From Hyphomonas chukchiensis (lineage in GTDB: Bacteria > Pseudomonadota > Alphaproteobacteria > Caulobacterales > Hyphomonadaceae): 64,000 nucleotides of DNA. The notes below the pieces were generated by a model. That model did not search any database. It was not told the DNA's origin and saw only the letters and a list, made by a program, of their open reading frames with translations. Below, piece after piece: positions 15,865 through 17,481 of this stretch; position 1 is the first letter of the stretch, and every line of letters begins with the position of its first letter. The translations under genes and the position numbers were made by a program. Location: contig NZ_AWFG01000041.1 of NCBI RefSeq assembly GCF_000682695.1, forward strand, positions 62,001 to 126,000, written 5' to 3'.

Positions 15865-17448
15865 TCAGGCGTGGGGCGATGCCTGGGGCTGGACTGCCTC
15901 CGGCAGCTGCAAGTCAAACGCGAGCTGCTTCGGTGGGCTCGCCTGAGGACGTTCACGCCGTGAGGACGAAGGGGACCGGTCGGCCACCCACTCTGCCCGG
16001 ACAGGCGTCGTCCTTTCCTTTTGGACTGGGCCCCCCTGACCGGCATAGATCCGGTCCCGCGCTTCCCTGGCTGCTGCCATATGGTCGACGATCCGCATCG
16101 GATAGGTCTGCCCGAGCACGATACCGGCCCTCGCCAGTTCCGCTTTCGGCGCATCCCAGGGCGCATGGATATGTGCGGCGGAAAGGCCCGAGAGTTCCGG
16201 CACCCAGCGGCGGATGAAATCCCCATCACGGTCATGGTCAAGGGACTGCTTGACCGGATTGAAGATGCGCGGAATGCCTGTTCCCCGCACACCCGCCTGC
16301 TTTTGCGCCTGCGGATAATGGATCCCGGCTTCGAAATCGGTGAACAGGGCCGCCAGCCGTGCGGCCGGTTGCTGCCAGTCCATCCACAGGTGCTGCGCGG
16401 CGAAAGCCATGACCATGGCGCGCATCCGGTGGTTCAGCCAACCGGTATCATTCAGGGACCGCATGCAGGCGTCCAGGAAGGGAAAGCCGGTACGGCCGCT
16501 GATCCAGGCTTCGAGCCGCGGGTCACCGTCGCTCACCCGGTCGCGCAGTCCATCTGGTGCGACATGCAGGTTGCGGCTGTTGATGGTGGTCTGGTCGCTG
16601 AGCTTCTGCAGGAAATGGCAATGCCACTGGAGACGCGAGAGGAAAGTGTCGAGCGAAGCGGCAAAGGTGGAATCACCATCCCGTTCAAGCTCTGCCCGCG
16701 CCCGCATCGCGCCTTGATAGGCTTCACGGATCGACACGGTGCCGAATGTGAAATGCGGCGACAGGCGAGAACACGCGCCTTCCGCCGATTGGGGGCTGTC
16801 CATGGCAGTGCGATAGCGCCGTCCGCGCGAGGCGATGAAAGAGCGCAGCAATTCCACGCCTTCGGCGCGTCCGCCGGGCTGGCGGCCGGGACAGGCATCC
16901 GGTTTCAGGCGGAAATCATCACCTGCAGGCCATTCTCCCGCCGGCACGCCGGCAGGCCTTATCTCATCAGGCGCTTTTGCGCGCGGCGCCAGCATCCACG
17001 CTTCCCATTGGCGCGCCCACCCATCGGCGCTCCCCGGATGACGGCACATGATGCCGTGCTGAGGCTGTTCGCGCAGGGCAATGCCTGCCTTCAGCGCCCA
17101 GCGCTGGACGGCACGATCACGGTCATAACTCCATTGCAGGCCGATTTCCTCATGGGCGTGGATCGCGGCCAGGCCATGATGCTTGTGCAGTTCGGCAAAG
17201 ACCTGAACTGCCTCACCGACACGAATGCATAGCGCCGATCCACGCACCTTGAGGGCTTCATCAAGGCTGCGCAGGCTCTCCATCATGAAGTCGAACTGAC
17301 GACCGGAATGTTCCGGAAGAGACCAGAACGCCGGCTCGAATATATAGAGCGGCATGACAGGGGCGCCGCTGGCGACCGCTGCGAGGAGAGGCGCGTGATC
17401 GTGGACCCGAAGGTCCCGCTTGAACCAGACAACATGCACATTGCTCAT
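15865..17448 (-). CDS. cryptochrome/DNA photolyase family protein
   Basis: 527 aa from ATG 17448 (MSNVHVVWFKRDLRVHD), the family's usual N-terminus. The alpha/beta antenna domain (residues about 1-130) is followed by the FAD-binding helical domain: CSRLSPHFTFGTVSIRE, FLSRLQWHCHFLQ, TGFPFLDACMRSL, GWLNHRMRAMVMAF and TDFEAGIHYPQ, then RIFNPVKQSLDHD and FIRRWVPEL. These are the flavin and substrate contacts of photolyases that repair UV pyrimidine dimers using blue light. The C-terminal 60 residues are variable and charged. A GTTC-N7-GTTC box sits across the promoter, pointing to SOS control. I cannot tell CPD from (6-4) specificity. Confidence 0.9.
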   Translation of the reverse strand: MSNVHVVWFKRDLRVHDHAPLLAAVASGAPVMPLYIFEPAFWSLPEHSGRQFDFMMESLRSLDEALKVRGSALCIRVGEAVQVFAELHKHHGLAAIHAHEEIGLQWSYDRDRAVQRWALKAGIALREQPQHGIMCRHPGSADGWARQWEAWMLAPRAKAPDEIRPAGVPAGEWPAGDDFRLKPDACPGRQPGGRAEGVELLRSFIASRGRRYRTAMDSPQSAEGACSRLSPHFTFGTVSIREAYQGAMRARAELERDGDSTFAASLDTFLSRLQWHCHFLQKLSDQTTINSRNLHVAPDGLRDRVSDGDPRLEAWISGRTGFPFLDACMRSLNDTGWLNHRMRAMVMAFAAQHLWMDWQQPAARLAALFTDFEAGIHYPQAQKQAGVRGTGIPRIFNPVKQSLDHDRDGDFIRRWVPELSGLSAAHIHAPWDAPKAELARAGIVLGQTYPMRIVDHMAAAREARDRIYAGQGGPVQKERTTPVRAEWVADRSPSSSRRERPQASPPKQLAFDLQLPEAVQPQASPHA

Positions 17449-17481
17449 GGAACAAATATAGAACATCTGAGCGAGCGCTCA
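17448..17481 (-). promoter_or_regulatory. promoter of the photolyase gene, probably leaderless
   Basis: On the minus strand TTGAGC is followed by 16 nt and TATATT, then TGTTCC and the ATG. A start seven bases after the -10 falls on the A of the ATG, and no ribosome site precedes it. This suggests a leaderless message. Confidence 0.55.
17450..17464 (-). promoter_or_regulatory. LexA-type SOS box of the photolyase gene
   Basis: On the minus strand the sequence is GTTCTATATTTGTTC, matching the alphaproteobacterial SOS box GTTC-N7-GTTC. It ends 1 nt before the photolyase ATG and covers the putative -10 hexamer TATATT, so LexA binding would block polymerase. Confidence 0.8.

Follow-up and report, generated by a model that had tools for sequence, protein, structure and literature searches.

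A conserved LexA-type operator overlapping the probable leaderless promoter of a divergent photolyase-family gene in Hyphomonas

The window analyzed here (i.e., a 64-kb stretch of Hyphomonas chukchiensis DNA) carries on its minus strand a gene of the photolyase/cryptochrome family (positions 15865 to 17448; 527 amino acids) that belongs to a divergent clade and whose product matches the Pfam domains FAD_binding_7 (PF03441; 205 bits) and DNA_photolyase (PF00875; 109 bits). Read along the minus strand, the sequence before the gene consists of a -35 hexamer TTGAGC (17482 to 17477), 16 bp of spacer, a -10 hexamer TATATT (17460 to 17455; consensus, TATNTT), the bases TGTTCC, and the ATG start codon (17448 to 17446), which is also the predicted transcription start of a leaderless mRNA and is ATG in 42 of 43 orthologues. 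A predicted LexA (SOS) operator of the form GTTC-N7-GTTC (GTTCTATATTTGTTC; 17464 to 17450, minus strand) occupies positions -16 to -2 relative to the A of the ATG, ending one base before it; the -10 hexamer lies within the N7 spacer of the operator, at exactly -12 to -7. Another in-frame ATG (17466 to 17464, minus strand), located 18 nt 5' of the first and absent from the initial annotation, coincides with the wTG of the LexA box and is judged below not to be the start. The initial annotation had placed the repeat one base before the start codon and across TATATT, and both features are seen in the minus-strand sequence. It was also right about TTGAGC as the -35 hexamer and about the 16-bp spacing, while its end coordinate for that hexamer was one base short (i.e., 17482 is the end).

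As a bare motif, GTTC-N7-GTTC was found once in the 64-kb window versus 1.46 matches expected, which is not above chance. In the whole genome, the exact pattern showed mild enrichment (119 matches versus 87 for the reversed control), and the pattern with a T before the second half-site was found 25 times versus 10 times in the reversed control. The single-sequence evidence of the initial annotation was weak, and the count in the window, which is what a chance match would predict, gives the site no weight; the site is significant because of its conservation. Since it occupies a fixed place in 43 genomes, a chance match is refuted and retains a practically negligible probability.

Homologues were gathered from Hyphomonas and its relatives, and upstream regions were compared in 41 Hyphomonas genomes and two other genera; a 42nd Hyphomonas genome (G052), which gave a partial match only, stood outside this upstream comparison. 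The box was carried by all 41 Hyphomonas genomes examined, by G078, and by one copy of the gene in G029 (the latter two representing two other genera of the same family). Its start is at -16 in 42 of these 43 family genomes; the remaining one (G066/L038) has one extra base and a start at -17. The alignment of orthologous upstream regions that had been proposed at the outset thus showed the GTTC repeat to be kept in 43 genomes rather than lost among relatives. Footprint statistics were derived from 27 upstream regions that were <80% identical to one another. Among these diverged regions, the 16-position stretch from -17 to -2 had 12 invariant positions, three that were identical in 26 of 27, and a single free one at -9 (i.e., the N of TATNTT). 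The -10 hexamer itself was conserved at T-12 (26/27), A-11 (27/27), T-10 (26/27), T-8 (27/27), and T-7 (26/27), so that every position of the block TGTTCTATNTTTGTTC was invariant or present in 26 of 27 regions, save the N that is the fourth base of this hexamer. Outside the block, the only positions that stood out were the TTG of the -35 hexamer and the base immediately preceding the ATG, which was C or T. The -35 TTG was found at a spacing of 16 to 17 bp in 37 of the 43 genomes; the other six had TGGACA (five genomes) or TAGACT (one genome). The flanking genes were largely unchanged among relatives where this could be checked, and since these genes are largely shared while the intergenic DNA has diverged, the box is a true phylogenetic footprint. 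A 19-mer (GTTCTATNTTTGTTCYATG) was found once per genome, always at the photolyase-family gene, in 33 of the 37 Hyphomonas genomes searched; it was absent from the 24 other genomes of the order that were searched, and its reversed control never matched. The four Hyphomonas genomes without the exact 19-mer carry small variants of it (i.e., an ATA start, TAC for TAT, or a 1-base insertion).

Conservation of this kind might reflect a promoter to which LexA does not bind, with the GTTC repeats being incidental, and the constraint on the spacer would be expected of a -10 hexamer. However, there is no variation in either GTTC half-site, even though sigma-70 requires neither of them, the first being located within the promoter spacer and the second downstream of the -10 hexamer. 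The site is also a strong match to the other LexA boxes of the genome, as detailed below. We therefore consider a promoter free of LexA very improbable.

The LexA motif known from Caulobacter is GTTC-N7-GTTC (PMC12700426), and no study of LexA in Hyphomonas was returned by the literature search. The H. chukchiensis genome contains a single LexA gene, with its own upstream box (GTTCTACATGCGTTC), and a recA gene whose upstream box (GTTTCCGCTTTGTTC) has one mismatch. Other LexA boxes precede rmuC, recN, comM, uvrA, uvrD, and the genes for a Y-family polymerase, a PA0069-family radical-SAM protein, and an N6-methylase; the regulon was sampled by pattern, and this is not an exhaustive list. From nine boxes of the same genome (i.e., those of lexA and these eight genes, excluding the photolyase-family site), we built a LexA matrix, by which the photolyase-family site scored 27.3 bits, versus 14.2 bits for the next-best site in the 64 kb. 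The nine boxes themselves, each left out in turn, scored 15.7 to 28.7 bits in this matrix, which consists of nine sites only, one of them at a gene (N6-methylase) that is not an established SOS gene. The matrix scan that the initial annotation had recommended, here run with the genome's own LexA boxes, thus gave a strong match of the site to the other boxes. With an operator of the clade type at the promoter and with lexA and recA each carrying a box of their own, the gene has the features of an SOS regulon member. Conservation, the matrix of native LexA boxes, and the box on lexA itself together provide strong support for control of the promoter by LexA; on this sequence evidence, SOS control of the photolyase-family gene in Hyphomonas is very likely, and the gene is very probably switched on by DNA damage. 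That LexA would shut the promoter tightly, as originally proposed, is suggested by the position of the operator.

Several of the other LexA-type boxes deserve mention in their own right. The probable start codon of uvrD lies within the LexA box of this gene (GTTCTCTATGAGTTC; G000:C26:17943-17962, locus L112), just downstream of TATATG, and this 20-mer pattern recurs in six Hyphomonas genomes; uvrD is possibly a second leaderless SOS gene. The box before the PA0069-family radical-SAM gene is located at G000:C13:25811-25825 (locus L092), and this gene is perhaps a relative of splB, for which LexA control has been reported in alpha- and betaproteobacteria. A strong box precedes the N6-adenine DNA methylase gene (G000:C44:7227-7241, locus L104), whose product has weak similarity to BREX/MADS methylases, which suggests that a defense or restriction gene is under SOS control. 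A pair of GTTC-N7-GTTC boxes, 25 bp apart, is located at G000:C28:1625-1664 (locus L098), where no clear open reading frame of ≥60 amino acids starts within 250 bp downstream on that strand.

The distance from the -10 hexamer to the start codon is constant in 42 of the 43 genomes and one base longer in G066/L038. No Shine-Dalgarno sequence is possible inside the fixed block GTTCTATNTTTGTTC[CT], in agreement with the earlier remark that no ribosome site is visible. A fixed block without room for a Shine-Dalgarno sequence, together with the -10/start geometry, points to leaderless initiation. On this basis, a leaderless start of the photolyase-family gene is likely; of the leaderless mRNA claimed initially, the geometry is kept in 43 genomes, and we infer the 5' end of the transcript itself from it. 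Leaderless mRNAs are frequent in the related Caulobacter, where 375 have been described, with a translation efficiency similar to that of leadered ones (PMC4117421). Translation might instead begin at the upstream ATG (17466) under the same SOS control, in which case the box would be coding and the leader would come from another promoter. An ATG or TTG is indeed present in frame at -18 in nearly all orthologues, and the downstream ATG is replaced by ATA in H. oceanitis SCH89 (L001:2001-2003/L014). However, LexA boxes of this genome (e.g., those of uvrA, recN, and comM) generally have a wTG in front of GTTC, and in G066/L038, the insertion of 1 nt shifts the upstream codon out of the reading frame but leaves the downstream ATG in place. 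Moreover, the conservation of the block extends to third codon positions, and farther upstream only the -35 hexamer is conserved. Because of the insertion and the common occurrence of wTG at other LexA boxes, we rejected the upstream ATG as the start codon and regard this arrangement as improbable. In H. oceanitis, which has another ATG at codon 4, the ATA implies that translation must begin elsewhere or at a nonstandard codon, and this species is the sole case left unexplained by a leaderless start at the ATG that follows the box.

A tree was built from 71 proteins, in which one branch, with a support of 100/100, separated the 42 box-bearing rows from all others. The tree required one gain of the box, and none of 500 shuffles gave a number as low; no loss of the box was seen within the clade. 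The exact GTTC-N7-GTTC, in either orientation, was absent from the 300 bp upstream of all 34 box-less homologues outside the clade (i.e., those belonging to other alphaproteobacteria and to a further genus of the family), and a wider LexA control of the protein family was rejected for this reason. A box on the canonical photolyase was likewise rejected, being found at none of 20 canonical paralogues. Read most simply from these sequences, LexA control would have been gained once, at the base of the box-bearing clade. G029, a member of another genus, has a second, very divergent copy of the gene (L062, L169, G029:C19) with the Hyphomonas box and promoter. This copy fell within the Hyphomonas clade, where it forms a long branch, and the other G029 copy is without a box, a distribution that suggests a transfer between genera.

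The two Pfam domains and a photolyase fold place the 527-amino-acid product in the photolyase superfamily, with scores under every NCBIfam photolyase cutoff. The best PDB match of its AlphaFold model (pLDDT, 87) was 4u63, a class III photolyase of Agrobacterium (TM-score, 0.78 to 0.85; 27% identity). In the alignment to 4u63, His377 replaces the Asn near the FAD N5 in 34 of 34 sequences, and position 381 is mostly Ala or Val and position 383 mostly Met (Lys in the window protein), where Trp residues of the triad region are expected. We take this Asn to be the equivalent of E. coli N378 and the lost Trp residues to be those at E. coli positions 382 and 384. The combination of Asn and both Trp residues that marks a canonical cyclobutane pyrimidine dimer (CPD) photolyase (class I/III) is thus absent. 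No variation was seen at Y212, S230, R343, and D371 and hardly any at W355 and W358; since these residues are kept, FAD binding by the protein is likely, and classic photoreduction and photorepair are not assured. A second FAD_binding_7 protein of the genome, with a much higher score, is the canonical photolyase and has no box. The SOS-induced light repair that was initially proposed is well supported with respect to SOS control but goes too far with respect to light repair, given that the Asn and two Trp residues are gone and the canonical paralogue lacks the box. Classes of the photolyase family, including "DASH-like" ones, have been described previously (PMC9178010). One tentative and rather doubtful view is that the His-377 clade is not a conventional photolyase and has a different damage-related function (on another lesion, in a light-independent step, or as a blue-light sensor tuning the SOS response), which Hyphomonas would have brought under LexA, the canonical photolyase being left uncontrolled.

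The observation is confirmed as real, with much stronger support than one sequence had suggested. We propose that a sigma-70 type promoter (TTGAGC-16-TATATT) drives the gene with the A of the ATG as its start point, yielding a leaderless mRNA, and that a LexA dimer on GTTC-N7-GTTC would cover the -10 hexamer up to the start point and exclude RNA polymerase. DNA damage would then lead to RecA-stimulated self-cleavage of LexA and free the promoter, which would make this divergent FAD-domain protein of the photolyase/cryptochrome family a member of the Hyphomonas SOS regulon. We assign this explanation as a whole a probability of about 0.88. It would represent a clear case in which LexA captured an FAD-type photolyase-family gene on one occasion and has retained control of it in every Hyphomonas genome examined; a single 19-bp block unites operator, -10 element, and start codon. 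This case would also link a light-linked flavoprotein to the DNA damage response, provide researchers with a clean leaderless SOS promoter, and mark a poorly characterized photolyase-like clade of alphaproteobacteria as a damage response protein.

The protein shares its fold with PhrA of Agrobacterium (4u63); PhrA keeps the Asn and Trp residues, whereas the Hyphomonas clade has His, Ala/Val, and Met/Lys there. As in the LexA regulon of Caulobacter and other alphaproteobacteria, the operator is a direct repeat, and the same type of box is found here on lexA, uvrA, recN, comM, rmuC, and uvrD. The Hyphomonas gene differs from the Caulobacter regulon in that its operator spans the -10 hexamer and ends at the probable leaderless start, and the word "photolyase" is absent from the main text of the 2025 paper on the Caulobacter SOS regulon (PMC12700426). 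Precedents are the predicted LexA control of splB and the SOS-box-like sequences of E. coli phr. Comparative genomics predicted splB to be under LexA in alpha- and betaproteobacteria (PMC3323433). This case resembles ours in that comparative genomics put a gene annotated for photoreactivation under SOS control, but splB encodes a radical-SAM homologue of spore photoproduct lyase, unrelated to the FAD photolyase family. SOS-box-like sequences are found upstream of the E. coli phr gene, for which weak induction by damage has been reported, along with a lack of specific LexA binding to these sequences. Both phr and the Hyphomonas gene are photolyase-family genes with an SOS-box-like sequence upstream, but in Hyphomonas this sequence is a complete and conserved operator placed on the promoter.
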